Shown here one piece after another: positions 4,660 to 34,153 of a stretch of 64,000 bases of DNA. The stretch is taken from the NCBI GenBank assembly GCA_964036195.1, contig OZ038451.1, positions 21,841,927 to 21,905,926 on the forward strand. The letters run 5' to 3'. This DNA is from Sphaerolaimus hirsutus (taxonomy: Eukaryota > Nematoda > Chromadorea > Monhysterida > Sphaerolaimidae). Position 1 is the stretch's first letter. Each line of letters opens with the position of its first letter. The notes beneath the pieces are model-generated. The model was not told where the DNA came from and made no database searches. It worked only from the letters and a program-made list of their open reading frames with translations. Position numbers and translations under genes: made by a program.

Positions 4660-4859
4660 NNNNNNNNNNNNNNNNNNNNNNNNNNNNNNNNNNNNNNNNN
4701 NNNNNNNNNNNNNNNNNNNNNNNNNNNNNNNNNNNNNNNNNNNNNNNNNNNNNNNNNNNNNNNNNNNNNNNNNNNNNNNNNNNNNNNNNNNNNNNNNNNN
4801 NNNNNNNNNNNNNNNNNNNNNNNNNNNNNNNNNNNNNNNNNNNNNNNNNNNNNNNNNNN
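4660..4859. other. Assembly gap, 200 N
   Basis: Exactly 200 unknown bases, a common scaffold-gap placeholder, so the real length may differ. Open frames crossing it are artefacts. Confidence 0.99.
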
Positions 4860-12819: not shown

Positions 12820-15800
12820 TCATCTGTCGATGTACATGCCGCGCATGGGCCATATCGTTCTGCACAGCAGCATCATCAACAAGAGTCTGGCGACGCCGAC
12901 CGACCCAGTCGCGACAGTGGCCGCCCTCGCCGCGTGCGACCCGTGGTTGCACCGGTCGCCCAAGCACGTGCACACCACGATCTGGGGCAGTCACAGACCC
13001 TGTAAAAGACCATGGAAAGTGTAAAAGACCCTGTAAATCGTCAGGTGTCATGAAAAACCGTGTAATGTGTCACGTGTATCCAAATCTTACGTTTTTTTAA
13101 CCAAATCATATGTCAAAACGTAAAATTTGGATACAAAAACATGATTTGACTACCATAAGATTTGAATACACATGACGCTTTACAGGGTCTTTTACCTACA
13201 TGACATTTGACACTTTACAGGGTCTTTTACACCTTACAAGGTCTTTTACAGGGTCTGTGACTGGCACCAGGTCCTTCTGCTGGTCGCTGCCGCCCGACGC
13301 GGACAACCAGCCGCCGCCGCTGTCCGTTCTGCCGCCGGCCGCTCGCACGAGCGTCTCAGCGACCGGGTCGCCCGCCAGCGCCGAGGCGCGCCTTCTCCGC
13401 CGCCGCCGCTGCACGAAGTCGTCGAAGAGCGACCCGCCGCCGGTGGACCCGCTGGGCAGAGGCTCGTTGCGCGACCAGCTCGACTTGCTGCTGCCGCCGC
13501 CGTCGTATGTTCTCCTGTCGACGGAGGCGCCGAGTCTAGGCGCGCCGGCCACGTCCTGGGGGTAGTAGTCCCGGAACATGTAAAATGTCCTGTGAAATGT
13601 CATGCAAAGTAACAAAAGTCATGTAAAATGCCCGGTAAAATGGGAAACGTACGTTTCCCGAGCATTTTACATGACTTTTGGCACTTTGCATGACATTTTA
13701 CAGGACATTTAACAGGGTCCGGGACTGGCACCTGGTCGTGCAGCAGTTGTCTCTTCGTGACGCGGCACAGTTCGTCCGGCCCTATGGCGGCTAGTTCGCG
13801 CCGCAGCCGCGCCGTCATGGGGAACAGGAGCAGGCGGTTGACGCAGCCGCGCATGTAGTGCTGGCCGAGCAGAAGGCCGCCCAGCATGTAGTTCTCGGCG
13901 ATGGTGACGCACTGGGGGGCAGTCTCAGACACTGTGAGATGCCCTGGAAAATGTCTAATGTCATGCAGAGTGTCAAAATGCCCTGGAAAATGTCTAATGT
14001 CATGCGAAGTGGTAAAAGTCATGTAAAATTGCATGCATAATGTCAAATGTCATGCAAAGTGTCAAATGTCATGTAAAATGCCCTGATAAATGTAAAATGT
14101 CATGCAAAGTGTCAAAAGTCATGTAAAATACCCTGCAAAATGGCAACTCGGTTGCCATTTTACAGGGCATTTTACATGACTTTAGACACTTTGCATGACA
14201 TTTGACATTTCCCAGGGCATTTTACCTGACTTTTGACACTACATGACATTTTCCATTTCACAGGGCATTCTACAGTGTCCGGGACTGGCACCTGGCCGCT
14301 GCACTCTTCCGTGCTCACGTTGGCGCGGCGGCGAGGGGACGCGGGCGCGGCGCAGTCCTCGGTGAAGCTCTTGGGCGGGTAGAAGTAGTAGATGAGTTCC
14401 GACCACCGGTCTTTGTAGGCGGGCGACATGCAGCTGTAGCACCGCCGCCAGCCGTAGTGGCCTGTGTTTGAGAGTTTGAAGTTCAATTTGAGGAAAATTG
14501 CCCACTCGTACGGACATATCTAGCGCTGCTAATGTGTACTGCGGTCGTGTTGTTTTAATGGCTTGTTGCAAAAGTTTTTGCCGTTTAAGTCTTCCATTGG
14601 ATCGTCTTTGATTGTGAGGTTTCAGTCGGGGTATATAAGCTGGAATTACAGCTCAATATAAAATTTATAAGAATAAACGTTTACCACGAAATTGTTTATA
14701 TAAAAGTGAACGATTATAAACGTCGCCGAATTTATGTTTCCTACTGATTTTACATTGAATTTTCATTGAAAAATCAAAAAATTCTGACTCGGTGGAACGT
14801 GCATGTTGGGTTTTGGACACTATTGTGGCCACACAAGCTAGTTTTCAACCAAAACTTTGAAAACTCGTAAATCAGCATTGAACGCATTTGAGTTTTCTAG
14901 AATGAGGTGCCCGTCATCTTCAGTTGACGGAGAGTAAAAATAACTCCTTCTAGAAAACTCAAATGTGTTCAATGCTGATTTATGAGTTTTCAAAGTTTTG
15001 GTTGAAAACTAGCTTGTGTGGCCACATTGAGAGATGTACGTAATCAATTTCACTTTAAAAATTTACAATTGAATAAATTCCAGCTTATATACTCCGGCTC
15101 AAACCCCACTGATCGTCTGGGACGCTCCAATGCGAGACGATCCGAAAACGGCGAAAACTTTTGCAACAGACCAATAGGTGTATATACCGGTTTTACAAAT
15201 ATCATTACCTTGTGCAGCTGATGCGATTGTGAACACCCTCAAAACAGCCAATATCCTTCAAAGCTACACACAAAACTCGGGCAAGCTGACAAAATATTTA
15301 TCAAGAAAAAGCTACATTTTCACCTGAATCTATTATAAATAAAATGTATTATCTCGATCTGCATGACTGCATCTCGTTGAAAAGTCGCTTTTCCTCGTTT
15401 TTCCCATCCCCCAGCAAGCTACATATAACGCCAGCCAGGCGCCAACTAGCGCCAAAATAAAAGCGTAACGCCATGAAACACGACATCTGCTGTACTCGGC
15501 GGACCGCAGAGTATGCGCCCAAAATTAGTTATGTCGTAGTCGGCAACGCGCCAGAAGGATACTTATGTATCCCCTTCCCCGAGTAGGTAATTCCAATATA
15601 TTTATGTTTCGTGTCTGTAATCATTTCTTCTTCCTTTTTGGTAGACTTTTGTTTATGATGACGTCACGATTGGGCGTTTAATTCAGAAAGAGTGCATAGC
15701 GTGCGATCCCCCGAGTATACTATAATTTAAACACTTATAACATGATCTCTGCTACTGTATTTCCTCGAAATACCCGGCCCTCTCGTTTAACCCCCCTAAA

Positions 15801-18187: not shown

Positions 18188-18480
18188 AACTTTCGGACGT
18201 TTTTCTATCGGACGATGTATCCGCCCGCAAGTTTGCATAAAATACACCGTTCGTCGAGCGGCCGGCGCCCCATTACGTAAGAATGTTGAAATGGCACTTT
18301 TCTCTGTTTTACATGGTCTCGATTTTGATGGATGGCGAGTGTAGTTGTCGACTGTGAGTGGCCACTTTGAGATCGGCTATAAAGTCGCGCCCTTGAATGT
18401 CAATTCGCCGCGGCTACAGTAATCCTCGGATAGGTCGGGTGGAAGTTAACCGGTGCCGTGTTTGCGCGCCGCAGTCACGA

Positions 18481-18822
18481 CTGGGGCCGGTCCCAGAGCC
18501 TGTGGAATGACCTGGAAAATGTCAAATGTCATGTAAAATGTCCTGGAAAATGTCAAATGTCATGCAAAGTGTGAAATGTCATGTAAAAGGCCCTGGAAAA
18601 CGCTAAATATCATGCATACTGTCAATAGTTATGTAAAATGCCCTGTAAAATGTCAAAAGTCGTGTAAAATGCCCTGGAAAATGTCAACCGGTTGACATTT
18701 GACATTTTCCGAGGGAATTTTACATGACTTTTGACAGACTGCATGACATTCGACATTTTCCTGACACTTTACATTTGACATTTGACATTTTACAGGGCAT
18801 TTACAGGCTTTGGGAGAGGCAC
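18481..18822 (-). mobile_element. Introner-family copy upstream of the ODR-2-like gene
   Basis: On the minus strand it starts GTGCCTCTCCCAAAGCCTGT and ends ACAGGCTCTGGGACCGGCCCCAG, with the usual internal ATGTCAAATGTCATG repeats and a central CAACCGGTTG palindrome. Its GT and AG ends point in the direction of the ODR-2-like gene 294 bp downstream. It could be a 5'-UTR intron, or an unspliced copy in the promoter region. Confidence 0.6.
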
Positions 18823-18879: not shown

Positions 18880-21512
18880 TGTCATGAATTTTCACCGGCT
18901 GCTTTTTACTCAACCAAATTCCACTATGGCAAACTGCCAAGTTTTACCGATCTCACACCTACTCGTTGGATGAGCGACAAAGTGAGGCAACGGAAAAGCG
19001 ACTACCGATTGAATTCGCAACGCACAATGGTGAATTCACCGAAGTGAATATCACAGGTGTACGCTACGTCAATTAAGTTAGCTTTTTAGCGAATGGCGTT
19101 TTTATCAACGCACCAGCAATTAGTTGAATGTCTAATTTACACCAAGGGGTCCGAAGTTTTTAGAAGAGATTTTATTTTAGGCGATTTTTTTAGACTCAGA
19201 ATTCACACATTTAGATAGAACACAGGGAACACACTGAGAGCGAGTTTCTAACCAGCGGCACAAAACCTTCGAAAAAACTCCAAGAAAATGAAACCGAAGC
19301 AATTTCGACTGAATCGACCCCTACTCTAAATTACGGTACGCTTTTATACGCAACAACATAAGCCAAGTCCAGACAACACTTCCACATACCACGAGAAGCA
19401 TGCTTACAAACGACTTTACAGACACACGGAATTTTAAAACGGGCATACCTAAAATTATTCACGGCGTCAGTTTACAGGATACGTCGATCAACTACACAAA
19501 AACACAAAGAATTCACGCGCCAAAAATCGGGTTGGGAACAAGAGCGAGGATAAAAATAGAAAATGAGAAAATGAACGAATGCGACAAGAATAAAAAGAAC
19601 AGGAAAAACACACGAGATACTGTAAAAACCTGTTTTAGCGCGAAAAAAATGGCGGGCGATTCAAATTTTATTCAGCGAACTCTACCGAAATCCCAAAACC
19701 ACCTCCACGAACGGGGAAACACACAGCAATTAGCGAAACAAATAGACACGCGAACAGTAATCCCATCAGCAAAAAGAGCGTATAATAAACGAAAATGACG
19801 TTGATATCCAAAGCGTAAGAAGCACACGTGTTATTAATGCACAACGAAAAAATGTCGTAAGTGGGATAATCCATGATAAGATTAGGATACCGGTAAGGCG
19901 AATGGAACTAACTTTCACACTGACTGTCAAGGAAAAAATGAATTACGGTACCGTTTTAAAGACTCTTAGCGGAAATTCTATCAGAGTGATTAAATAAATA
20001 CGCACTCAAATCAGATCACCTTTACACTTATCAAAATATTCGGGGAAAAAACGGGAAAAACAAGCGGCTTATTATTTCATCTCTTTGTATAATAAAGATC
20101 AACCACGAAATTTGCATAAATTCCTAAATATCCAAATGTCAAGTTATCAGTTTTCTAGGGGAAAGGGAAATACTAAAAAATCAATCTAGGATTAGGTAGA
20201 TAAAAAATAGCGAAGTTGCAAACGTAAAATCAAATAAAAATTAGCATACTCGAGTTTTACCTATTCCCTACCAAACCTAAAGTTAAAATGAATATAAAGT
20301 CGGTATAACGCTTAACAGAAATACGAACGCAAATGATTGGCAACTTGAAAGTTTATAAATTTCAATCTTTGTAGCTTAAATGCATGTTTGGATTGCATGA
20401 CTTTTTGAAGTTTAAAACAACAACGAAAAACAAACTCAAGTGAATCCACTGCCACATGCCGAAACGCAACAGCCATTAACTACCGAAGGCACTTATCGCG
20501 AAAATGACCACTCTCGCTGCTACACCACTCATTCTGCTACCAGAATATTAATTAGTCAGCCACGGCTTTTTGATCCCATACGCACTGTGCAAAAACCACA
20601 CCCCGAAAATACCGAACTGCTCAACTCACTCAAAAATAGGTACACTTGTCACTGTATGGGTGCTTGTTTCGATGAGATCGGCGGACTGGGCTGTTCTCAC
20701 AACAAGCCAAGGGAGTAGGCATTTAGACATGCGATCATGCCTGTCGAGTTAGACTCGATTCTTTTAATTACCTCTCATTTTCAACACCAATCATCATCGC
20801 ACCTCTATAATCAGTGTACCTTTGTAAAATCGCTTGTAAATTAACTTTTGCCTTCCAATCCGGAAATGCAGGAATGCACAGTACATACTAGATCAATAGC
20901 CGCGACCCTCACATCAAAAAAATGCAACGAAAGTTAGTCAAAATTCAACCTATGTGCCCTCAGTTATCACTGACCATTCACGCACTACGACACGTAACTG
21001 CAGTGTCACTCTTTTTACTTAGAAAAAATAACTGAAACTTTGTTATGCAATCCAAACCGCTAGTAAAAAAATTACTTTTAAATTAAACTGTCACAATTAA
21101 AATTGTTGCCACCTCACTTGTCTCACTTTCTTAAAAAAAACTACCTAATTAAAAATAAAATAAATAAAAATAACTATTTTCATCACAGCGTCAGCTTTGT
21201 GTCAGATCCTCAATACCTCCAATCCTTTCCTTGGCCAGAAAAAACAGATATAACACAATGGGGCACCGGAAAAACGGAAATGCACGTTGCCACGTTGCCA
21301 ACGTAGCGCAGCGACGTAGCCGAAAACGTCAATGCCACGTTCGCCCACCGAATCGCCCAAAACCATCGTCGAAGTAGAACTGAAATGTTTAAATTGTTGT
21401 AAGCTCGGAAGTGTAAACAACCCTCTACATAAATTCATTAAGTGAACTATATATACATTTACACTTAAAATTTTACAATTTTACAATTTTTGGACACCCA
21501 CTTTTGCTCACA
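18880..21512 (-). repeat. 3' LTR (2,633 bp)
   Basis: It begins TG and ends CA on the plus strand. It matches the right LTR at a constant offset of 15,274 bp, and all open frames inside the two copies have identical products. An antisense 132-codon frame (19400-19798) and a sense 68-codon frame with hydrophobic segments (19874-19668) exist, but neither looks like a known protein. Confidence 0.95.
21448..21455 (-). promoter_or_regulatory. TATA-like box in the 3' LTR
   Basis: TATATATA lies 57 bp inside the LTR end that is 5' in element orientation. If this copy is active it would direct transcription along the LTR toward the ODR-2-like gene. Confidence 0.35.
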
Positions 21513-21530
21513 AACTCCACCAGCCATACA
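21513..21530 (-). other. Polypurine-tract position (weak)
   Basis: The sequence just upstream of the 3' LTR in element sense reads GTATGGCTGGTGGAGTTT. Only the GGTGGAG core is purine-rich, so this is a weak tract called mainly by position. Confidence 0.3.
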
Positions 21531-21823
21531 TTTTACCTCCCGGCTAAAATCGAAGCACAGCAAAACTATTAAAGAAACGAATTGAACTAAATTCCCGTTT
21601 TTTTTTTTGAGAACTATTTTAAACCAATTTTAAATTTGTTAACAACCATTACGCATTTTTCCACACCTTGTTGAGAACACAAAAAAAACTTTTGAACCGG
21701 TAAAACTCAATGAAAATTCAATTTTTAATTCAACAAAAGCTCAATTCTACTGGTAAAACGTTCGCTCTAACAAAAACAACTAAAAACAAAAACAAAAAAA
21801 ATTCCTGTACACCTAAATTACCA

Positions 21824-24800
21824 TTACTCCGCTTCCATCTCCTCCTCTGGCTCCAAACCTGCCAAAGTTGGAGTCACTGGCGGGGGCGGACTCTGTTCCT
21901 CTTGCGGTGACGGTGACGCGCCAACTACAACAACCTGAACAGGTTGCTGCAGCTGCTGTGCGGCCGCTTCCTCAGGCTGCTCCTGCTCATCTTCCTGCAT
22001 GGGCTCAGCAGACTCATTGGCCTCCTCCTGGATGGCGTCCATTTGTCTTAGCATCTGCCGGTCTGGGCTCATGGACTGTTGCTGTCGCTCAGCGTCCAAC
22101 TCGGTGTTCAACTCGCCCGCCATTTGAATTAACTCATCCAATTTTTCTCCAATAATTGCATTATTGGCCTCTTCAGTATCTGGCTCTGGTTCTTGCTCTT
22201 GCCGTTGACCTTCCATTGCCGGTTCCTGCTGTTGAGCACCTTGTTCACTTTGTTCCTGTTCCACCTCCATCACTTCCTCCTCCTGGTGCGTTTTCTGTTT
22301 GTGTGCCGGTACGGGCGGCGCGTGTTCAGACTCCGAGGCCGAATCGGTCTCACTCGATCCCGATTTTGACGAACCCGACGAAGAACTAGAGGAAGAGGAA
22401 GAACTCGACGAGGGAGAGCGACGACGACCGCGATACCGACGCCGAGACCGAGAACAACTCGCTTTTTCATCCGCGCGCGGCTGAACTTTTTCTGACTCCT
22501 CCTCCTGCTCTTCGGGCGGCAACATTTGCACGTCTGGGGAATCGGGAGCGGGAACGACGTCGGCGTCTGGCTGAGGGGACGCTCGCTGTTCACTCACATC
22601 CACCTCCTGAACTTCTTCCGGCGGCGGCGGAACCTCATTTTCTTCTTCTTCTTGCACGGGCGGAGCGGGTTCTGGCAGATCGACCGGGGCACTTCTCCAG
22701 TGGCCCAGAAACCTAGCCAACGGGTCACTCTCCCACAAATGTCGCTCGTGGTACGCAAAAACGTGTCCCTTCCCTAATTCCACCGCCACAAAACGCCAGA
22801 AAAATTCAGAATGCAGCACGGTAGCGGCGTTCATGATCACGACTCTGGCCGTTTTGGCGCGAGACGTGGCCACGTTGCACCGCTCCGGCATCGCCAAAAA
22901 GCCAATTCTGTCCATCACATCGCGCTCGCGCTGCGACGGGTGTCCAGTAGCGTCCACACGCGGCGCGCTACCCCTCACACATGACACAATCACCACGTGC
23001 GCTTCACGAGCTTGCGCTCGATCAGCAGTGATGACTTTTTTCCGCCAAAACGCTGGGGTCACCAAATAATCGGGGAACCCCTCACCCCCTAACAACTGCG
23101 CCCAGCTCAATCGCACCAATTCGTCAATCACTCTTCTCTCCTGCGCTGAATAGAAACACACAATCAGCAGCGAATCGGCGCTTTCTAAATCACTCCACGG
23201 AACGACATTCTCGCCCTCGCTGTTCAGCGCCAAGATGACAAATTGCTGCACAACGCGCACCACAATGTCCACTTCCGTCAAATTTTTAACAGACACGCCC
23301 TCGCTCGTTTCGAAACCCATGTGCACGATCACAGAAGACAAAGGCACCTGATCGGCACCGCAAGCCATGAGCGGCAAGGTATCTCGCCACTGACTGTATT
23401 CGTGGAACGCGCGCAATTGGCCATCGTACGCAGCGACTGAATTTGCTTGAATCAGCGCGTCGTGGCCGCGGAAGACAGTCTCGAGCTTCAGAATTGGGCA
23501 CAACACACCTTCCACCAACCTGTTGATCAGCGATGGATCAGGTTTCAGGATCGGAGCGATCCATGAATGCGGCCTGACCATTCGGGTCAACTGCTTGCTA
23601 TCGCCAAACAAAAGCACCAAGCCATTGTGGGGGAGTCGAGCGTTTGAAACAGCGCCAAAAATCGCAGTTTCATCCGCCAAAGACGCCTCGTCCACAAATA
23701 CCGCGGCATATTTCAAAACTTGCAGTCGCTTATCGCGCGATGAATCCAAGGTCACATGGACTTGGCCTGGCTGCAGCACATTCAACACCACCTTATGCAA
23801 CCTAGTAGCCACCCTAACGAGGCGTCGCATTTCGCGCTTGTAAATTTTGCCCCACACCTGGTTGTCATCGACAAAGCCAGCCGCGGCCCCCCACGCCTGC
23901 ACGCCCTCCTCTTGACCATCGTCCAGTGGCACCAAATCATCCTCGTCGTCTTCGTCGATGGACAAACGAACCAAAGGCAACTGCGACCGAATGGCTTCGA
24001 AAATGTCGGCGGGGTGCTGATTGTTCGCGATGATCTCGTTCAAAGTGTCACAAATATGGCGTTGAGCGGTAAAGCGTTCATAGGCAGTTAGCCAGTGGTC
24101 ATTCAATCGGATTACATGCATGGGCATGTTCTGCGCGATCAAATTCAGCAGCGGCAATTGCTGGAGCGTCATATCGACGTAGCGATCGTCAACTTCCAAC
24201 AATGGACTCAGCACGCGAATCGCGAAAGCGGCGCGCACCTGACAAAAACGCGCATAGACAGGTGTTTGAAAATTTGGCTTATCATCCATCGCAGTCCACC
24301 TCTCCCTACTGCGCAGCAAAACTTCCACGACCGTTTCCAAATTAGGCAGACCAATGTTTGCCAAACTTTGCAACGATCGTCTGGCAGACTCATCAGCGGC
24401 CGAATTCACACTGCAAGTAGTCATTGTGGAGTGGTAAAGCGCATTTTTGTTTGCATCAGAGGGCAATTCCCTCTTCAGCGGGTTCGGCGGGTCATTTTTC
24501 TCGGTAAATTTGAACGCAACCGCGTACGCACACTGACTTTGCACAGTCGTTTTACCGGAACCGAACGGTGAATCACACATCAACAATAGCGGCGCAGTTT
24601 TTCGCACAGACTTGATAACTGACGCAATCACACGCCCCTGCCCCTCCTGCGGCCGAAAATCACCCTGCTGCGCTTGCAATAAATCTTCGCATGTGCCTCT
24701 GCGCACCTCGGCGTACAACCCGTCAGACTCAATTTTGTCGAGCGTGCGCTGCCAATCAGTCTCAACTTGGTTCAACTGCTTGTGCAGCACTACCGCCATT

Positions 24801-26374
24801 TTGACTTGGTCTTCCACAGCGAGCATTCCGGTGTTGCTCTCGGTTGGCCGGTAGCCACTAGGCCCCATTATGCACAACCGCTCCAAAGTTTCCATGCGGC
24901 CATTGTAGCTAGGCGACAAAGCGGAACCGCGCACCATGTAATCACAATTAGGCAGCAAATGCGGCGACAGCGCCTGCGGCACCAACACATCCGGTTTGGC
25001 GACCAGCTGCACCGCCTCGGCAGTGATGTCGGCGCTGACCGTACGTAAATTTATTTGCGGGCGGCCAGTCAGAGCGCGCTCTTCCCCCCGGGGATCAGCT
25101 TCGACGATTTGTAGCGACGACATGGGCGAAGTAAAATTCAACATGTAGCCCTGCGCCTTATTCCTGTGCCACTCGGCCGTGTCGCGCATCGCAGCAGCTG
25201 GATTCAAATGCACGCGCTCCCACCTAATTATCGCAATTAATCCCCGCGGCCCATTTTGCCAAGTCACCTGCGCGCGCACCGCTTTCGCCCTAGTCGCAGT
25301 GTATCGCAAATGCGCTTCGTGACACACGTTAGCAGCGGCCAAAAAGATGGAACGAAGCTGCAGCTGAGAGGTGAGGTAATTTCTATTCATTTCGCCCTTC
25401 CACTCCATACCAGCCTCAATTTGCCGCGCCGAGAAAATACGCACGCCATACGCATGACCCCAATAAAAGTTGTTGACTTTGCCGGCGTCATCAAAAGCGT
25501 GATATTCTACATGCGCCACACCTAATTGTCCGGCGTGCGGGTGTATGTCACTTTCCATGACATTTTCGCTGTGCGCAAAAATTAACTTTTCAGGGCCCGG
25601 ATCCCGCTCGTCGGCGCCTTTGAAGGGGGGTGCACTAATGTACCGCGAAGGGGTGAACGCTGCCCTCAAACGCAAGTATCTCCACTTGGCCGGATAAGGA
25701 TGATATCCTTCGCGATTTTCCTGTCCTCTCTGTGAAATTTCCGATGCTGGCTCATCGACGGAGAGGTCAACCTGTCCTTGCGAAACAATAACAACAGGGC
25801 GGCCCAAAAACAATGGCATTTGAGCGTCATTTTTCATAATTGTGACGCCTCGCAATTCCCAATATTTCGGATTGGCGCTAACCCTACTGATACCAGTCGC
25901 GACAAAATGCATGCCGTGGCGGACAAGCGGCAAAAACATGTCGTAAGCTTCATTAGCCTCGCGATATTCCTTCAAAATTTTCTGCACCGACCGCTCACGA
26001 GCGCGCTCCGCTTTGTTGACCGAATAGGTGAAAAAGGGATAAGCCGTTTCCGCTTCCGACCACTCCGGATAACTTTCCAAAAGCGCCTGCGCATCGCCGT
26101 CGAAACGAATGTGGCATTGATAACTGGTAGGACGCGGCTCGTTACCGACGTGAACTCGATCCACTATTCCCGACAACTTCTGGTTGATGACAAATTCAGG
26201 ACAAGTCGACCGGGCGTTTCGAGGAGGATTGTAGGGCAGCGGCGGAATAGTGTCACCGCCTTGTTTTCCATGAGAAGTCCACGACTTGAGCGGCGCTTTG
26301 GCTATGCGCCCGCCACGATACGAACTGGAACTCGCTCCATACCCACCCATGGGTACGCCACCCGAACTAGTCAT
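21824..26374 (-). CDS. Retrotransposon ORF3: UPF1-like superfamily 1 helicase
   Basis: ATG 26374 opens 1,516 codons. Residues 1-590 match nothing I recognise. The helicase core follows: Walker A SPFGSGKTT (602-610); an Ia/Ib-like TTCSVNSAADES; Walker B with DEAS (VFVDEAS, Asp895-Glu896); motif III LLFGDSKQL (921-929); ETVFRG near 965; motif V EAHVVIVSCVRG (1124-1135); motif VI ERCNVATSRAK (1164-1174). SCVRG and NVATSRAK are signatures of UPF1/DNA2-type SF1 helicases, which translocate on single-stranded RNA or DNA using ATP. Residues about 670-890 form a long insert with an acidic stretch before Walker B. The tail (from about 1230) is Pro/Glu-rich, then SR/poly-Ser with an Arg-rich block, then Gln/Glu-rich. 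All catalytic motifs look intact. I know of no standard Ty3/gypsy protein like this; capture from a host or viral helicase is inference. Confidence 0.88.
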   Translation of the reverse strand: MTSSGGVPMGGYGASSSSYRGGRIAKAPLKSWTSHGKQGGDTIPPLPYNPPRNARSTCPEFVINQKLSGIVDRVHVGNEPRPTSYQCHIRFDGDAQALLESYPEWSEAETAYPFFTYSVNKAERARERSVQKILKEYREANEAYDMFLPLVRHGMHFVATGISRVSANPKYWELRGVTIMKNDAQMPLFLGRPVVIVSQGQVDLSVDEPASEISQRGQENREGYHPYPAKWRYLRLRAAFTPSRYISAPPFKGADERDPGPEKLIFAHSENVMESDIHPHAGQLGVAHVEYHAFDDAGKVNNFYWGHAYGVRIFSARQIEAGMEWKGEMNRNYLTSQLQLRSIFLAAANVCHEAHLRYTATRAKAVRAQVTWQNGPRGLIAIIRWERVHLNPAAAMRDTAEWHRNKAQGYMLNFTSPMSSLQIVEADPRGEERALTGRPQINLRTVSADITAEAVQLVAKPDVLVPQALSPHLLPNCDYMVRGSALSPSYNGRMETLERLCIMGPSGYRPTESNTGMLAVEDQVKMAVVLHKQLNQVETDWQRTLDKIESDGLYAEVRRGTCEDLLQAQQGDFRPQEGQGRVIASVIKSVRKTAPLLLMCDSPFGSGKTTVQSQCAYAVAFKFTEKNDPPNPLKRELPSDANKNALYHSTMTTCSVNSAADESARRSLQSLANIGLPNLETVVEVLLRSRERWTAMDDKPNFQTPVYARFCQVRAAFAIRVLSPLLEVDDRYVDMTLQQLPLLNLIAQNMPMHVIRLNDHWLTAYERFTAQRHICDTLNEIIANNQHPADIFEAIRSQLPLVRLSIDEDDEDDLVPLDDGQEEGVQAWGAAAGFVDDNQVWGKIYKREMRRLVRVATRLHKVVLNVLQPGQVHVTLDSSRDKRLQVLKYAAVFVDEASLADETAIFGAVSNARLPHNGLVLLFGDSKQLTRMVRPHSWIAPILKPDPSLINRLVEGVLCPILKLETVFRGHDALIQANSVAAYDGQLRAFHEYSQWRDTLPLMACGADQVPLSSVIVHMGFETSEGVSVKNLTEVDIVVRVVQQFVILALNSEGENVVPWSDLESADSLLIVCFYSAQERRVIDELVRLSWAQLLGGEGFPDYLVTPAFWRKKVITADRAQAREAHVVIVSCVRGSAPRVDATGHPSQRERDVMDRIGFLAMPERCNVATSRAKTARVVIMNAATVLHSEFFWRFVAVELGKGHVFAYHERHLWESDPLARFLGHWRSAPVDLPEPAPPVQEEEENEVPPPPEEVQEVDVSEQRASPQPDADVVPAPDSPDVQMLPPEEQEEESEKVQPRADEKASCSRSRRRYRGRRRSPSSSSSSSSSSSSGSSKSGSSETDSASESEHAPPVPAHKQKTHQEEEVMEVEQEQSEQGAQQQEPAMEGQRQEQEPEPDTEEANNAIIGEKLDELIQMAGELNTELDAERQQQSMSPDRQMLRQMDAIQEEANESAEPMQEDEQEQPEEAAAQQLQQPVQVVVVGASPSPQEEQSPPPPVTPTLAGLEPEEEMEAE

Positions 26375-26898
26375 ATTTCACACTTCAAAGTAGAGCACCG
26401 GAAAACACAACTTATTGCTACTTAATATGCGCCACCCAGAATGTCGGCACCGAAATGCACGAAGGTCTGAGCGACACCCTAATCGAAAAGTTGCGAATTA
26501 TTTTCAACGCACTACGTTGAACGTATTGCGCCAAAAATAATTTTGATTTTGTTGCGAAATGGGCGAAAATGAGAATGAAATTAAAGAACAAGTTTAGAAC
26601 GAAATAAATGCGATGATATGAATAACTGGTGAATTAAAACTGCGACGACAATTAGGAACAAACAATTAATAACACTTATGAAATTTTCGCGCTTTACCTT
26701 TTTACATAAAAAACCAACTTTTTGCTACAAAATTATCTTGCGCACAACCAAAAACACCAAAATTGCAACCCCGAACTCACCACGAATTGACGGTCAGAAT
26801 TAAACGCGAATAATCCAAAAATAAATTTTAATTGAATTTTCGAACGGAATAATTAACTTGGGACACTTTAGGTTGAAGAGCGGAAAATCTCAGGGTTT
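26375..26898 (-). other. Spacer between pol and helicase ORF
   Basis: 524 bp of AT-rich sequence between the pol stop and the ORF3 start, with no long frame. It could hold a subgenomic promoter or splice acceptor for ORF3; I see no decisive signal. Confidence 0.5.
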
Positions 26899-29703
26899 TT
26901 AACCGAAAATCTGCGAATAGGTGGGATTAACTGGTTCATTTGTTAATTTAACGCGATCAGCATGAACGGTATAAGTTTTCTTAGACAACCTATTAAACAC
27001 GGTCACAATGGGATGCACATAATCTAAACATTCATACGGGCCAATATAATGATGCGTGAATTTCTTAACGCGACCTAACTTTCGAAGAATTCGGGGCGAA
27101 TAAACGCGAACTGATTGACCGGGCTTCAAATTCAAGCGGCGCGCACTGCGATTTGCATAAAAACACTCTTTTTCTTGCGCGCGCTGTAAAGCCGAATGCG
27201 CGGCCGTGCGGACGTCCGAAAGTCGCGCGTCTAAATTTGACACAAAAGGACTGTACGCCGTCGGCTTATCGGTCTTATCGGTGCCATTTCCCGTCGGCTC
27301 GATCATACGCTCCCAAAGTGACGGAGAATTTGATCCAAATAGCAACGCATATGGTGTCACTTTCATAGAGGGGTGCATAGACGTATTATACGCATAGACA
27401 GCGGCGCCTAAGTGTTTGTCCCAATCCGAATGCGAGCCATTCACATAATGTGAAATTATTTCCATTAAGACGCCATTCCTGCGCTCAACCAAACCATTCC
27501 CCTTTGGCGTATAATTGAAACACTTATGCTGCACTGTATTTAGATAACGTAGCAATTCCGCAAAAATGCCGCCAATGAAGCTTGGTGCATTGTCGGATAA
27601 GATTACAGCGGGCACACCAAAAATCGGTAACACATGTTGCAAAAACGCAATAGCCACAGTATCTTGCTTCAAATTAGGAACAGGCACTGCTAAACCAAAA
27701 CGCGTACATTGATCCACAAATACCAATACATGCACATTCCTTTTTTCGGTAATTGGCAATGGCCCTACTGCATCAATCGCAATAAAATCACCGGGAAACT
27801 TAGCGATTTTCCGGCTCTGAATTTGAGTTTTCATTGAGCGACGCAATCCTTTCTTCGCGTTGCACGAAGGGCAAGTAGAAACCCATCTAGCGCATTCTGG
27901 ACGCATATTTGTAAACCAAGCAAATTCGCGCAATCTTTCAAACGTTTTCATCACACCTAAATGTCCAGCAGTGGGATGGTTATGAGCCAATTCTAACACA
28001 GTGACAACTAGTGACTGGGGAATGCACGCAGGGTCGTATTTCCTTTCACCCACTAATATTGACGGTTCTGCATCACGCCTGACAACATCAAATTGATCAA
28101 TGAAAAACGGTGGGGCCCTACGCAAAGTAGATTCCTCGCACATACGACGAATTGTAATTATATACGGTTCTTCTTTTTGCAAACGCGACAACTCTTCAAT
28201 TGGAGTAATGGGAGGAGGTAAAGCATCGAGTTTTTCCGGTTTCTTAATTAATTGACCAGAACGGCGGCCACCAGCCATTAATTTAGGCGCATCATCACTT
28301 TTGGGCGGCGATTTCAAAGCATTTTCAGAATTGGACTCCACCTTCTTTTTACTTCGCACGCGCATTGTCATTGGATGCGGCGCCCGCACAGTAGCAACGC
28401 TTGCCACTGGCAGTTCAGTAGCTACCGTAACTGACGGTTCCAAAGACTTCATTTTCGCATGTTTCAGCCAATTTTGAGCAGAAGCCAATCGCACCATGGC
28501 CTTAGCTACCGCTTGACAAGCCAAATGTTCCTCAGATGTTACTAACGCCATTTCCTCAGTCAAAATTCTCGCCAATTCATCAACAGGTATATCAAATGCA
28601 TATTCTTCAAACGCTTCGTCCAAATTAACACGCTCATCAAATTCAACGGGTGCATCACGCCGGCGCGACAAAGCATCAGCCAATTCGTTACTTTTCCCAC
28701 GCAAATGCTTAAAAGTAACTTGATATGATTGAATAGCAAGCGCAAATCGGTGCAAACCCGTATGGGGATGGGTTTCCAAATTTGGATTTTTCACCCATGA
28801 AATACTTTTCGCATCAGTCCAAACTTCAAACGGCCGGCCCGCTAAATAACAATGCCAATTGCGTATGCTCTCAAAAATAGCACATGCTTCTTGCGTAATT
28901 GCAGGCCATCGGGATTGCGCTTCAGAAAGTTTTCGACTATAAAATGAACACGCATGCAAAGCGGCGGCAGGTTCAGCGCGTTGTACTAAAATGCCAGCTA
29001 ATGCAACTTTAGAAGCATCGGTAATAATTATGAACGGTTTACTGGGATCAGGATACTGTATGCAGGGACTTTCAGCCACCATCACTTTCAACTTATTAAA
29101 AGCTTCCAAAGCGGCGGGGTTCGCATTTAAATCTACGGGAGTACTTCCGCTATACTTTTCAGTTCCTAATTCAGTTTTTGTTCGAGTTAAATTAGACAAA
29201 GGAGCGGCATATTCAGCACATTTATGAATTAATCTCCGGAAAAACCCAACGGCACCCAAAAACGCCTTAACCTCACGCACACACACAGGTAGCGGCCAGT
29301 CACTCAAATACTTTCGCTTATCATCTGGTATACAAATCCCTTCACGCCCTACCATATAACCCAGGAATTTAACAGCAGTTGTGCGCGCGAAAAAACACTT
29401 TTTTGGGTGTATTTTAAAACTGCTACTTATCAAACGCGACAAAACCTGACTTATATCACTCAAATGATCTTCCCATGACCTACTGTAAATGAGCAAGTCA
29501 TCTATATATACCAACACATTTCGATGCAATAATCCAGCCATTGTAACTTCAAAACAGCGCTGCGCTAAAGCCGGGGAACACTTTAATCCCATCGGCAAGC
29601 GTTTCATCTGAAATTGACCAAAACAATTACGAAACGACGTAATATGTCTATCATCCGGATGCAGCGCAATGTTGTAAAACGCTTGATTGATATCGACACT
29701 GCT
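26899..29703 (-). CDS. pol: Retrotransposon pol: RT C-terminal part, RNase H, integrase
   Basis: The frame is open from 29703, with its first ATG at 29607; positions here count from that Met. RT shows LPMGLKCSP and catalytic YIDD (34-37). RNase H has Asp197, Glu240, Asp265 and Asp311 in the expected order. Integrase has an HHCC zinc site (His544, His549, Cys579, Cys582) and the D,D35E triad Asp612, Asp672 and Glu708 (IDAVGP, SDNAPSF, GLVERRNG). A GPY/F module (IGPYECL, 856-858) and chromatin-distal tail end at residue 902. These features define a Ty3/gypsy polymerase. The upstream RT half is in another frame, separated by one extra base at the T run 29704-29708, so as assembled RT is made only if the ribosome shifts +1. 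Otherwise this copy is broken. No gap or stop occurs elsewhere. Confidence 0.93.
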   Translation of the reverse strand, partial: SSVDINQAFYNIALHPDDRHITSFRNCFGQFQMKRLPMGLKCSPALAQRCFEVTMAGLLHRNVLVYIDDLLIYSRSWEDHLSDISQVLSRLISSSFKIHPKKCFFARTTAVKFLGYMVGREGICIPDDKRKYLSDWPLPVCVREVKAFLGAVGFFRRLIHKCAEYAAPLSNLTRTKTELGTEKYSGSTPVDLNANPAALEAFNKLKVMVAESPCIQYPDPSKPFIIITDASKVALAGILVQRAEPAAALHACSFYSRKLSEAQSRWPAITQEACAIFESIRNWHCYLAGRPFEVWTDAKSISWVKNPNLETHPHTGLHRFALAIQSYQVTFKHLRGKSNELADALSRRRDAPVEFDERVNLDEAFEEYAFDIPVDELARILTEEMALVTSEEHLACQAVAKAMVRLASAQNWLKHAKMKSLEPSVTVATELPVASVATVRAPHPMTMRVRSKKKVESNSENALKSPPKSDDAPKLMAGGRRSGQLIKKPEKLDALPPPITPIEELSRLQKEEPYIITIRRMCEESTLRRAPPFFIDQFDVVRRDAEPSILVGERKYDPACIPQSLVVTVLELAHNHPTAGHLGVMKTFERLREFAWFTNMRPECARWVSTCPSCNAKKGLRRSMKTQIQSRKIAKFPGDFIAIDAVGPLPITEKRNVHVLVFVDQCTRFGLAVPVPNLKQDTVAIAFLQHVLPIFGVPAVILSDNAPSFIGGIFAELLRYLNTVQHKCFNYTPKGNGLVERRNGVLMEIISHYVNGSHSDWDKHLGAAVYAYNTSMHPSMKVTPYALLFGSNSPSLWERMIEPTGNGTDKTDKPTAYSPFVSNLDARLSDVRTAAHSALQRAQEKECFYANRSARRLNLKPGQSVRVYSPRILRKLGRVKKFTHHYIGPYECLDYVHPIVTVFNRLSKKTYTVHADRVKLTNEPVNPTYSQIFG

Positions 29704-32700
29704 AAAAATATTTGCAACTGTGCAATGACTCTATTGTATCGTCTAATCTGGGCAGCGGAAATTGGGGAGCGTGAACTACTGCATTTAATCGTCGATAATC
29801 TATCACCATGCGCTTTGCACCATCCGGCTTAGTAACAACTAATGTCGGCGCGCAGTACGGACTCGTACTGTGTTCAATGACGTCATGCTCAAGCAGGCAA
29901 CTTAAATGCTTTTCTAAGTACTGCTGGTCATCCAAACTCAACCTATACATTCGACACGCGACCGGAATTTTACTAGTCAACTGAAGTCGATAATCAACCA
30001 ATTCACTGTATCCCAAATCATACTTATCCCTGGCGAAAGCATCCTGATGAGCCAAAATTAACTCTTTTAATTGCTGGCGCTTAATTTCGTCCAATTCAAC
30101 CGGTACTTCAAAATCCATTTCCCTCCCATCGGCACAAACCACTTTCATAGTCGTATTCGCCGCTTTTGAAGGTACAGTGCCCTTCGTTGGTACTTTTTCC
30201 TCACTAGCTTCAAGTATAGTATCGGTAAAACTCATATCACGCTCGCGGCACTCTCGCACCCACTCAGCAGGCGGATCACCTCGACGCACTTGTAAAACAC
30301 ACTCCACTGGCTCTACAATGGCAATTTTCTGGCCCACCTGCAACTTTACTGGCACCTCAGTCACATTAACACACCTCACCGGAAATAATTCACTCGCGCT
30401 TTCATAAACAGCATTAGCTGCAAACACACCCGTTTTCACATGAAATTCGTTCAAAGGCTCAATCGCAAACGTCAATTCATCAATTGGTTCAGATAATTTC
30501 GCACTAATTATCGTTTCATGCCGCGGCTTAATTTCAGTCGGTTCAGTCACAACTGCATAAATATGCCGTTCTTGCACTACAGGCGACGGGTTGTCAAAAG
30601 GCACAGTCAACTTTTTACGCGCATCGCCACTCTCAATTCGCAACTCACGCGCAGGCATATCAATAACCATATGCCTCAATACATCAGCGCCTAATAAAAT
30701 GTCGTCCGACAAACCGCTAATCACCTGAAATACAATAGAAAACGCTTTCCCGGTAATCATCACTTGAAGTTCCAACTGACCCTCAATTTGCAATTTGCAT
30801 TGAGACGCGCTTTGCAATCCCCCCACAGGCGTGACCTCATCAAACGCTATGCAATTATTCCGATGCCTAGCCAACACCAGCGGGCTGCACAATGACCTCA
30901 TCGCACCTGTGTCCAACAGACACCTTTTGTATTCGTTCCCCTCAATTTCTACCGTAATCGACGGACTATAGTAAATTGGCACGAGTTCTTTACGCTTAGC
31001 CGTAATACTTTTGATGTTCGCAATTTCTTCACTGGTCAGCGTGACTACATTCACCTTTTCCATGACGGCAGAACCTTTAGGAACGCGCAGCGGCGGCAAA
31101 CGCTTAAATCTACTCACTGGCGTTTCTTCAATATCGGCACTATACCCTGAACTGTCAGCGCTAACTGGATTTAACTTTTGCGGCGGTGTCACGGGGGTCG
31201 CACCCCTTGCAGGATTGCGCCTATTTTCTATCGCTAACATGCGATTTAATTGAACCCGCAACACTCTCATTTTTATCCAATCACACACTGTGAACACTAA
31301 ATACAACACCAGTTCACACAAAGCGGGCAGAATATATCTCAAAAACACGGAAGTGCACATTCCAGCGATAAATCCCTCAAGAAAATTTCGCACGGTCAAA
31401 ATCCACTCATCTGACACTCCTTTTTTCTTAACAACGCCACCACTTGGAACACCCAGGGCGTCAACACTTGCAAAAAACGTAAATAGACAGCACAGGAAAA
31501 ACACACGGTTCAACACACTGGGCAACATACTCGGTTCCGACCACGTTCGGTACAAAGTCGGCACGCTCGCTTCACAATAATCGGACAACACATACAATTC
31601 AGAATCAGATGACGTTCGCGACAAACTAATGTCCGGCGGTTCACACATAAATGTATGCATGGTCAATTCTAGCAGCGCTTCTAACTTAACGTACGTCAAC
31701 GTGTCCTCAGGGTCATCATGCGGATGCTCATCAGCATGCTCACAAAACCCGCTTATATTCAACCCCTGCAAACCCATGTGTTGCAATTGAGCCCACCACT
31801 TTGTTCGAAAAATCATGCTATCTAACGAACGCGCATAAACCCAAGGCATAATCCAAGCCTCTCTTTCGAGCATGAATTGATGTTCTTGCGGCGTTATTTC
31901 AGGCGGATTGCATGGATCCTCTGCTTCCTCATCTGAACTTTCAAGACCCGGTACAACCCTAATCATGCGCACATATTCCTTACTTTCTTGCACGCTGCGT
32001 GCATGATTCACTGAGTTCGCAGACACGCGCGTCGGATTTAACGCAGTCAATTCAGTTGACGGAGGGGCCGCAATGGCCATTTGCGATGATTGAACTTGTT
32101 GCACTGGAGACCAACTAGTAGTTGACACTTGCGCGGGAGGGGGATAATACAGGTAAGGCGGCGCTTGCATGGAATATACAGGTTGCTGTGCAGAGCGCAT
32201 CATATTCGCTGGACCTCTGAAGTTATTCATCGGTCGCTGCGGCGGCCCGCGCCGAAAATTTCTAAAGCGCGCTTTTTCCTCTTCTGTCAATTTAGGACAA
32301 TCAGAGCGAAAGTGATCATCTGCCCCACATTCATAACAGCCCTCATCAAATTTACGCGGCCTAAATTTGGAAACTGGTTTCGCAGCATTGTTACCTATCA
32401 ATTGCTTTTCCAAGTCAACTAAACGCTTATCCTTATCCTCTAACTGCCTAGAAAGTTCTTCCAATTTCACTCGCTGTTCCTCAAACTTTGGATTTTCCGC
32501 CGCCGCCGGAACGGGCGGGGAATTTCCGAAAGCTCCCGCACCCCCTAAAGCAAAAATTCGCTCGATTACCGAATTGGTGGCTTCTGAAACTAATTCAGCG
32601 TTGGATTTTGACTTTTTCTTACCACCCACTTTGTCCTTATCAATTTCCAGAAAACTTTCTTGCGTGCGCGCATTATTGACTACGTCTTGAAACTTAGCCC

Positions 32701-33628
32701 CAGCAGTAATAGATACATTCCTACGGATGTCAGGATACAATCCACTGACAAATTTCGCCACAGCCATCTTTTCGCGTTCAATTTTTGAAAGTTTCGGGAA
32801 AGCGCGTTTTATAATTTTCTCCAACCGCACTGACCAATTTAATACATCTTCATCTTCGCCCTGCTCACTACTAATCACTTCCCTTTGCGCATGATGCTCC
32901 GAAATGGGGTTAGTATAATAACGTTCCAAAGTGTCCATAAACTCCTCATAATCTAAATTAATCAATTCACTCTTATGCGACATGTAAATCGAACGCGCGC
33001 TGTCACGCAAATAAACCGGAAGCAGCGATTTTCGCTCATCCGTCGGAATTTGCAACGCCTCACAAACTGCGTCCCAATTTTTACGCCAATCAGCAAATTT
33101 ATCATCAGCGCGCCCCTTAAATGGTATCACCTGTCCAGTAAGCGCGGTCATGGCAGCAGCATAACCCTCCCTACTAGTAGCAATCATACTCACAGCAGGT
33201 ATAGGTGGTGTGGTAGCGGTAGAGCACCCTCCCGAATTAGAAACAGCGCTAATTACAGAATTAATCGCTTGCATGTCAGGCTTTTCTAAATGAATATACT
33301 CAGCAAATGCATTAATCGCGTCCGCAATTTGACTCACATCATTTCGCAAATTATAGCAGTCAACACCTAACTTTACTAATGACACTAATTTTTCGTCATT
33401 ATCACTCATGTTCCCATTTTCCAAAGAACTCATGGGTCGCTGATTATACAAATAAGCAGCAATACTCACAGTTTGAGTCACAACCTGACTAAGGTTCCAT
33501 TCTGACCCCTGAACCGAATTCCCCACTATCGACGAATTAATTTGATTCAAAGTCAAATTTTTCGCTTGAATCAACAATTGCACCACATCGGGACCCGTAT
33601 TCACACCACTACCGCTCGCATGCGCCAT
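29702..33628 (-). CDS. gag-pol: Retrotransposon gag-protease-RT N-terminal frame
   Basis: The frame is open from 34093, but that codon is TTG. The first ATG is at 33628 (AGTATGG context), giving 1,308 residues counted here. A retrotransposon-gag-like helical region spans about 165-300, a coiled coil about 385-411, and a CCHC knuckle Cys431, Cys434, His439, Cys444 (CYECGADDHFRSDC). Two strongly hydrophobic stretches follow, about 709-726 (VFFLCCLFTFFASVDALG) and 749-785, unusual at this place. The aspartic protease has LLDTGA (Asp906) and DDILLGADVL (975-984). RT begins near 1211 and reaches the PLPRLDDTIESL segment before TAG at 29702. The stop lies in UUU UAG C, a context where a +1 slip would restore the RT frame. 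A simple one-base insertion is equally consistent. Confidence 0.9.
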   Translation of the reverse strand: MAHASGSGVNTGPDVVQLLIQAKNLTLNQINSSIVGNSVQGSEWNLSQVVTQTVSIAAYLYNQRPMSSLENGNMSDNDEKLVSLVKLGVDCYNLRNDVSQIADAINAFAEYIHLEKPDMQAINSVISAVSNSGGCSTATTPPIPAVSMIATSREGYAAAMTALTGQVIPFKGRADDKFADWRKNWDAVCEALQIPTDERKSLLPVYLRDSARSIYMSHKSELINLDYEEFMDTLERYYTNPISEHHAQREVISSEQGEDEDVLNWSVRLEKIIKRAFPKLSKIEREKMAVAKFVSGLYPDIRRNVSITAGAKFQDVVNNARTQESFLEIDKDKVGGKKKSKSNAELVSEATNSVIERIFALGGAGAFGNSPPVPAAAENPKFEEQRVKLEELSRQLEDKDKRLVDLEKQLIGNNAAKPVSKFRPRKFDEGCYECGADDHFRSDCPKLTEEEKARFRNFRRGPPQRPMNNFRGPANMMRSAQQPVYSMQAPPYLYYPPPAQVSTTSWSPVQQVQSSQMAIAAPPSTELTALNPTRVSANSVNHARSVQESKEYVRMIRVVPGLESSDEEAEDPCNPPEITPQEHQFMLEREAWIMPWVYARSLDSMIFRTKWWAQLQHMGLQGLNISGFCEHADEHPHDDPEDTLTYVKLEALLELTMHTFMCEPPDISLSRTSSDSELYVLSDYCEASVPTLYRTWSEPSMLPSVLNRVFFLCCLFTFFASVDALGVPSGGVVKKKGVSDEWILTVRNFLEGFIAGMCTSVFLRYILPALCELVLYLVFTVCDWIKMRVLRVQLNRMLAIENRRNPARGATPVTPPQKLNPVSADSSGYSADIEETPVSRFKRLPPLRVPKGSAVMEKVNVVTLTSEEIANIKSITAKRKELVPIYYSPSITVEIEGNEYKRCLLDTGAMRSLCSPLVLARHRNNCIAFDEVTPVGGLQSASQCKLQIEGQLELQVMITGKAFSIVFQVISGLSDDILLGADVLRHMVIDMPARELRIESGDARKKLTVPFDNPSPVVQERHIYAVVTEPTEIKPRHETIISAKLSEPIDELTFAIEPLNEFHVKTGVFAANAVYESASELFPVRCVNVTEVPVKLQVGQKIAIVEPVECVLQVRRGDPPAEWVRECRERDMSFTDTILEASEEKVPTKGTVPSKAANTTMKVVCADGREMDFEVPVELDEIKRQQLKELILAHQDAFARDKYDLGYSELVDYRLQLTSKIPVACRMYRLSLDDQQYLEKHLSCLLEHDVIEHSTSPYCAPTLVVTKPDGAKRMVIDYRRLNAVVHAPQFPLPRLDDTIESLHSCKYF

Positions 33629-34133
33629 ACTCAAGGTAGAATACCGGAAAAACACACACTCACTCGACGACTGGGTACTCGCGCTTCGGTACCCGGCACT
33701 CGCGCTTCGGTGCCCTAACTTACTTTGCCCTACGGTCGGGAATGGCACCTCCGCACCCGCACTTGGCTTGCCTTGCTCACAGGTCGGGAATGACTCCTCC
33801 GCACCTCTTTCAGGGACCGGTCCTTCCGCGTCCACCCAGCAGTTGACGTCAAAGTCGTTAGGTTCGTCACTCAACTCAGCGGTTCCCGGTTCAGAACAGT
33901 GCGCGTCCGTACTGAACTGAACCGATTTCGGTTTTTTCTTACTTTTCCGCTTTTCCCTTTTTTGCCCACTAATAATTTCGTCAGTTTCGCGTCCCAAAAC
34001 AAAAATATCCGTGCTTATCGGTTGCGTCGATCGGGTAGCCTTCCGTTCCTCCAGCCGGGCGGTGGTTCGTTTGTTCTCACCAGCGATTGTCAAACGGTGA
34101 TCAGTCGCCTGAACTCACTGGGAATATTAAACA

Positions 34134-34151
34134 AACCACTCGCTGCTACCA
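34134..34151 (-). other. Primer binding site, initiator-Met-like
   Basis: Two bases after the 5' LTR the element reads TGGTAGCAGCGAGTGGTT. The first nine bases (TGGTAGCAG) match the complement of a eukaryotic initiator tRNA-Met 3' end, and TGGTT recurs after a diverged middle. The tRNA identity is tentative. Confidence 0.55.
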
Positions 34152-34153
34152 GT

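Follow-up and report, generated by a model that had tools for sequence, protein, structure and literature searches.

Does the long reading frame that follows pol in a Ty3/gypsy retrotransposon of Sphaerolaimus hirsutus encode a helicase that belongs to the element, and if so, what would the element gain from it? On the prevailing view, retroviruses and LTR elements depend on the helicases of their hosts, and an LTR lineage with a selected helicase of its own raises the question of what such an enzyme buys: greater length, or a way past RNA surveillance or small-RNA silencing. The element lies in a window of 64,000 nt (C2:21841927-21905926, forward strand), which is the whole stretch of DNA analysed here and to which the positions below refer unless a contig is named. 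Together with its near-identical genomic copies, it is called family A.

Element A occupies positions 18880-36786 on the minus strand (17,907 bp; all features below are on the same strand). Its 5' LTR (34154-36786) and 3' LTR (18880-21512) are each 2,633 bp long with TG...CA ends and are 100% identical to each other, and TTTG is found on both sides of the element, that is, a 4-bp target duplication within the 4-6 bp range of Ty3/gypsy elements. Thus, the sequence-only reading of this window, which had described a Ty3/gypsy element with one LTR pair and a shared target duplication, was borne out. A primer-binding-site-like stretch, TGGTAGCAGCGAGTGGTTT (34133-34151), which we take to be of the initiator Met tRNA type, begins two bases past the 5' LTR. 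The gag-PR-RT(N-terminal) frame follows (29702-34093; Pfam matches in part below cut-off), with a PNMA-like region (residues 329-442) and a CCHC motif (585-601), both under the Pfam cut-off, two hydrophobic segments (864-882 and 916-934) and a protease-like stretch (∼1046-1142) far under the cut-off. The remainder of RT, RNase H and the integrase H2C2 and core domains were identified by Pfam in the next frame (26899-29730). The gene order, read across a conserved frame break, is gag-PR-RT-RH-IN, with RT, RH and IN above the Pfam cut-offs; the best solved-structure match of pol is Ty3 Gag-Pol (7q5b, E=1e-51), by which the RT appears nearest to that of Ty3. A non-coding gap (26375-26898), in which a splice acceptor may be located, separates the IN stop from the ATG of the third frame, ORF3 (21824-26374, 1,516 codons). 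Finally, the 3' untranslated part (21513-21823) contains a polypurine-tract-like GGAGGTAAAA...ATGGCTGGTGG adjoining the LTR, whose counterpart in a second family (family E, see below) is similar. Pfam detected no env glycoprotein in ORF1 of A, and family A does not qualify as an enveloped retrovirus.

The pol of element A is split over two frames, and normal RT sequence resumes one base on from TAT TTT TAG C (29698-29713), where reading from the next base gives ...CKYF-SSVDINQ. Damage to this particular copy was considered as an explanation and rejected: no indel was present at the site in any of the 10 other A copies examined, and the same break was observed in one E copy. Because the break is common to these copies and to family E, the site is likely to be a programmed +1 frameshift (recoding) site rather than a lesion. 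It should be noted that the place of this putative shift, within RT and not between gag and pol, is unusual.

ORF3 opens with ATG, has no internal stop and lies between integrase and the 3' LTR, as the sequence-only reading had it. The SF1 motifs I (GSGKTT), II (DEAS), III (GDSKQL), IV (FRGH), V and VI (TSRAK) are all present, in the blocks DSPFGSGKTT, VFVDEASL, LLFGDSKQL, LETVFRGH, TADRAQAREAHVVIVSCVRG and ERCNVATSRAK, and each of the six blocks is identical in 20 of 20 A copies (window copy counted), which confirms the complete helicase motif set read earlier; TTCSVNSAADE, which follows motif I and precedes motif II, is shared unchanged by 16 of the 20. The only Pfam family past its cut-off was AAA_12 (E=1.4e-19, residues 948-1182), and the profile check therefore agreed with a helicase. 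Three parts could be distinguished in the protein: a conserved N-terminal region (∼1-560), the helicase core (∼560-1225) and a tail (1225-1516) that is acidic, RS-rich, poorly conserved and faster-evolving. No Pfam family matched residues 1-560 at E<=1, yet this region is conserved in family E. Structure prediction gave two models, with mean pLDDT of 28 and 33, values too low to be of use.

When compared with solved structures, the A helicase alone matched NAM7 at only E=0.023, whereas a profile of the A and E helicases matched SMUBP-2 (E=5e-5), UPF1 (8e-4) and NAM7 (3e-3). Ten of the 11 rows obtained with this profile were one of these three proteins (E from 5e-5 to 1e-2) and the eleventh was a 5'-3' RNA helicase-like protein; none of the aligned stretches passed when taken individually. 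On the basis of this weak profile match, the A helicase would be placed in the UPF1-like (SF1B) subfamily that UPF1, NAM7 and SMUBP-2 share. It differs from these proteins by the 287 residues that separate the motif I lysine from the motif II aspartate, by an N-terminal region of its own and by the zinc-binding (CH) domain of UPF1, for which Pfam gave no match in A at E<=1. Since this domain was not found, the protein is best described as UPF1-like but not as a UPF1 orthologue; the earlier label of a UPF1-like helicase can be kept with regard to the SF1 subfamily but does not extend to orthology. The viral-type SF1H of insect LINEs also appears to be a different class, considering that the Viral_helicase1 profile had no match in A at E<=1 (E=0.062, below cut-off, in the E helicase) and that A is an LTR element and not a LINE.

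To examine whether the frame is a gene of the element or a stray insertion, the genome (348.5 Mb, 762 contigs) was searched with the helicase ORF, and the best 31 of 941 candidates by helicase score were examined. The helicase frame was open at all 31 places (window copy counted), with 1,516-1,520 codons from stop to stop and 99-100% identity. The integrase end was located upstream of the helicase in all 20 copies fetched, although it was interrupted in one of them (L006). In addition, ∼900 bp of each LTR were checked in eight other A copies: in eight of eight, the two LTR pieces were found where expected, ∼15.27 kb apart. The sequence-only reading had allowed that other copies might lack the ORF, or that it might be a host gene whose flanks differ; neither was observed, as the frame was open in 31 of 31 (best 31 of 941), integrase was upstream in 20 copies and the LTRs were in place in 8 of 8. 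A one-off insertion or a host gene was thus rejected on the basis of the open frames, the LTRs in place and the same plan in family E, and the helicase ORF is a gene of the element. Identity within LTR pairs of the eight copies was 99.89-100% (2 mismatches in 7,142 aligned bases), whereas their LTRs were 96.8-98.5% identical to the window LTR. The A copies are recent insertions from several lineages, and because LTR pairs are near-identical while LTRs have diverged between copies, differences among the helicases should have arisen mostly in the replicating lineages and not after insertion.

We then measured selection in 20 A copies (L001-L020, window copy counted), counting single-base variants against the commonest codon, with a neutral expectation of ∼2.7 nonsynonymous per synonymous change. 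In this sample, which is top-ranked by helicase score and so favours intact copies, the helicase ORF carried 63 nonsynonymous and 235 synonymous variants (pN/pS ∼0.098). The ratio was 0.087 in residues 1-560, 0.060 in residues 560-1225 and 0.20 in the tail. For the last 300 codons of IN, it was 0.057 (7 nonsynonymous and 46 synonymous; 19 of the 20 copies), L006 being left out because the piece used carries an interrupted IN frame, and 0.081 with L006. Mean pairwise diversity was 0.0115 in the ORF, against 0.040 in the preceding gap (520 bp) and 0.027 downstream of the ORF. The helicase ORF is under purifying selection, about as strong as that on integrase, in a sample ranked by helicase score, and the selection that had been suggested from the long intact frame was thus detected among its copies.

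A search of the genome with PF13087, for which 150 of 454 candidates were scored, revealed another family organised in the same way. The top two matches had short or interrupted frames resembling host-gene exons; the remaining 148 were nearly uniform in match length and score and were assigned to family E by these two values, one E copy being read in detail. Among 147 of the 148 E-type rows, the open frame reached at least 1,280 aa in 101 and was shorter in 46. The copy read (C2:30938074-30955658, 17.6 kb) consists of an LTR (∼1.7 kb), ORF1 (2,227 codons), RT-RH-IN, the helicase (1,323 aa from ATG) and a second LTR; the last 1,358 bases of the LTR pair are identical and the first 347 aligned positions are 97.7% identical. 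As in A, the helicase is a separate ORF after IN. The two families share 40% identity over ∼1,220 aa of the helicase and 57-62% in pol. Because so diverged a family has the same plan, the gag-pol-helicase order, judged by these comparisons, is older than the split between A and E; other copies with this order, which the earlier reading had looked to, are thus present both in A (31 of 31 scored places open) and in E. The pN/pS of ∼0.10 in 20 copies and the homologue at the same position in E indicate that the helicase ORF is not a product of chance.

Family E also contains a segment of a Monjiviricetes/chuvirus-type fusion glycoprotein (E=6.5e-7, 28.1 bits; cut-off 27), which is located between gag and protease inside the single 2,227-codon frame (L071:3305-7198, L049:2-2785). 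A hydrophobic stretch resembling a signal peptide was noticed in the middle of this polyprotein. Anakin, an LTR element with a chuvirus-derived envelope (PMC12440569), is similarly glycoprotein-bearing on the published description; the E segment is distinguished by its place between gag and protease in one long frame. At the corresponding place, family A has just two hydrophobic segments. It may have derived from an enveloped ancestor and lost the envelope later.

Further searching with PF13086 revealed 28 matches among 98 scored candidates. Ten of these resemble host exons, and the other 18, at 14 distinct places, have long frames of 604-1,183 aa. Helicase ORFs were read at 6 of the 14 places (four of family B, one each of C and D) and the neighbourhood at two. 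In both B and D, gag is directly upstream of the helicase. Downstream of the helicase in D come first a frame that combines RT with two protease-like stretches and then RH-IN; the helicase of D precedes this glycoprotein/PR/RT frame, whose glycoprotein-like segment is 25% identical to that of E over 308 aa (E=8e-24) and has a weak Pfam match of its own (E=0.011). A search of 5.3 kb before gag and 6.0 kb after pol in the D copy revealed no LTR pair, so that the members of this group are at most candidate LTR elements. Over 1,028 aa, the B and C helicases share 41% identity, and the N-terminal part of D is ∼40% identical to each. Among solved structures, a B+C helicase profile matched NAM7 (E=1.4e-8), and the C helicase scored 25.4 bits for Viral_helicase1 (cut-off 21), lower than its 51.7 for AAA_12. 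Catalytic motifs are altered in B (GSGKNT) and D (EEAS), and some of the B and D helicases may be catalytically altered. BLAST of the A helicase against B and C gave nothing at E<=1, and a profile comparison recovered only a motif V-VI stretch (probability 2.9, E=0.015), so that a common origin of the two groups was unsupported. As A and B/C have no direct similarity, the simpler reading is that the helicases of A/E and of B, C and D are separate captures, probably two in one genome.

The core of the A helicase was also used to search a protein database (E<=0.001). The sole protein found among 7,986 candidates was PRIPAC_81420 of Pristionchus pacificus (P0001; E=4.6e-13), which is 28% identical in the core over 45% of the A query (profile comparison probability 98.4) but differs in being a tandem double helicase whose similarity to A is confined to the core. 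None of 7,994 candidates was found with an A/E alignment, which missed PRIPAC_81420 as well, and none of 6,059 with a B/C alignment; among viral contigs with pol, no relative of the A helicase was found. As for reported elements, the insect LINEs TRAS and Jockey are described as retrotransposons that acquired viral-type SF1 helicase domains with the full motif set, one insect LINE SF1 helicase being reported as a weak suppressor of RNA silencing (Morozov et al. 2017, PMC5563155). They resemble A in having acquired an SF1 helicase with all motifs; however, they are non-LTR elements with a helicase of plus-strand-RNA-virus type in ORF2 or ORF1, whereas A is an LTR element with a separate ORF3 of AAA_12/UPF1 type. 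Bdelloid rotifer LTR elements, like A, carry a non-env ORF between pol and the 3' LTR, but the products described for their ORF3s are GDSL esterase, DEDDy exonuclease, env-like, TM and coiled-coil proteins, and 'helicase' appears once in the available text, in the reference list (PMC5408684). Cer1 of C. elegans, a nematode LTR element, likewise has a non-env ORF3, whose product CERV works on genomic RNA in its unspliced form; unlike A ORF3, CERV is not called a helicase, the word being absent from the available text (PMC10309623). No helicase in LTR elements was found in the accessible part of a paper on Ectocarpus (PMC12477816), and none of the best matches among open-access titles and abstracts, in some cases the best 20 of thousands, described an LTR element with an SF1 helicase. 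Thus, SF1 helicases are known from insect LINEs, and an LTR element with one is apparently unreported in the open-access literature covered.

What might such a helicase do for its element? The reading that we favour, with moderate confidence, is that ORF3 belongs, as a resident third gene, to a Ty3/gypsy lineage of recent activity and that its product is a selected SF1 helicase remodelling the element's own RNA. Building on the observed position, motif set, copies, purifying selection and conservation in two families, we infer translation, ATPase activity, substrate and role as follows. The helicase would be made from a subgenomic mRNA, produced by splicing or in another way, hydrolyse ATP and move along RNA, its substrate being the unusually long RNA (∼15.3 kb) of the element itself. 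It would strip host proteins, small-RNA machinery or structure from this RNA, which could then escape surveillance and be translated, packaged and copied. ERI-6/7, which is SF1/MOV10-like, and ZNFX-1 represent types of host SF1 helicase in the small-RNA pathway. Countering nematode small-RNA silencing is the selective reason that we favour, because certain siRNAs that silence integrated retroviral elements in C. elegans depend on the RNA helicase ERI-6/7: eri-6/7 is described as required for siRNAs against ∼100 integrated retroviral elements (PMC11778786, which cites Fischer and Ruvkun 2020 for LTR elements). In C. inopinata, eri-6/7 is reported to be absent and transposable-element activity to be high (PMC6086898). 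Taken together with CERV of Cer1, these observations suggest by analogy that such silencing could be weakened by an SF1 helicase that acts on the RNA of the element encoding it. The exact role may also lie in RNA stability, decay, export or reverse transcription, between which and silencing the present results do not discriminate.

Among plus-strand RNA viruses, those with large genomes tend to carry a helicase gene, a link for which no paper was found in the open-access literature covered. By analogy with the service of helicases in large RNA viruses, the enzyme might act in or near the particle as a helper of reverse transcription, where it would unwind either the structured template RNA of 15 kb or the cDNA as strands are displaced across the 2.6-kb LTRs. 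The size of the elements (17.9 kb in A and 17.6 kb in E) would suit such a role, but the helicase ORF lies after pol in a frame that differs from that of IN, leaving no obvious route into the particle, and no gag-helicase fusion is present in A or E; we regard this explanation as rather unlikely. The protein could instead imitate or compete with those host helicases of the SF1 class that act in small-RNA silencing, taking up their partners or their sites on RNA whether or not it is itself an ATPase. The eri-6/7-dependent silencing of integrated retroviral elements in C. elegans (PMC11778786) would be in keeping with this, and the altered catalytic motifs of B (GSGKNT) and D (EEAS) could suit a binding role in those families. 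In A, however, no catalytic motif is altered in any of the 20 copies and constraint is strongest in the core, which argues for an active enzyme, and imitation or competition seems an unlikely main function.

LTR elements do capture host genes, and exon-like SF1 matches are present in this genome, so that the frame could conceivably be a host SF1 gene captured once and carried without use to the element. This is highly improbable given a pN/pS of 0.06-0.10 among replicating lineages and the retention of the helicase across the A-E split at 40% identity; moreover, the seven host-exon loci compared match A weakly (best E=9e-5). More tentatively than the remodelling of the element's own RNA, it is possible, though doubtful, that all these elements belong to a single clade of nematode LTR retroelements, very large and envelope-derived, with at least two independent uptakes of SF1 helicases, after integrase in A/E and between gag and pol in B/D, which are used against helicase-driven small-RNA silencing. 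If true, host and element would be engaged in a molecular arms race in which both use one class of enzyme, and these would be the first retroviral-type retroelements with a replicative or counter-silencing helicase of their own. With at least 31 near-identical A copies and ∼148 E-type matches in one genome, the question of what a helicase buys a reverse-transcribing element could be tested in the living host.

Several minor observations concern the window and the host genome. Rfam and tRNA scans of the 64-kb window gave no matches, and a run of 200 N bases occupies positions 4660-4859. Degenerate short direct and inverted repeats with TGTAAAATGTCATGCAAAG-like units form two clusters (13001-14240 and 18451-18706) ∼4.4 kb apart, the latter close to element A. 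The exact 22-base SL1 leader had no match in the genome, which would speak against a typical nematode. Genome-wide, TTAGGS repeats gave 17,412 overlapping matches, and those listed were nearly all TTAGGC, the nematode telomere unit, in keeping with a nematode host, as is the Pristionchus pacificus origin of the nearest helicase protein; arrays of TTAGGC were observed both inside chromosomes and near an end (for example, C2:5287004-5304020 and C1:28243494).
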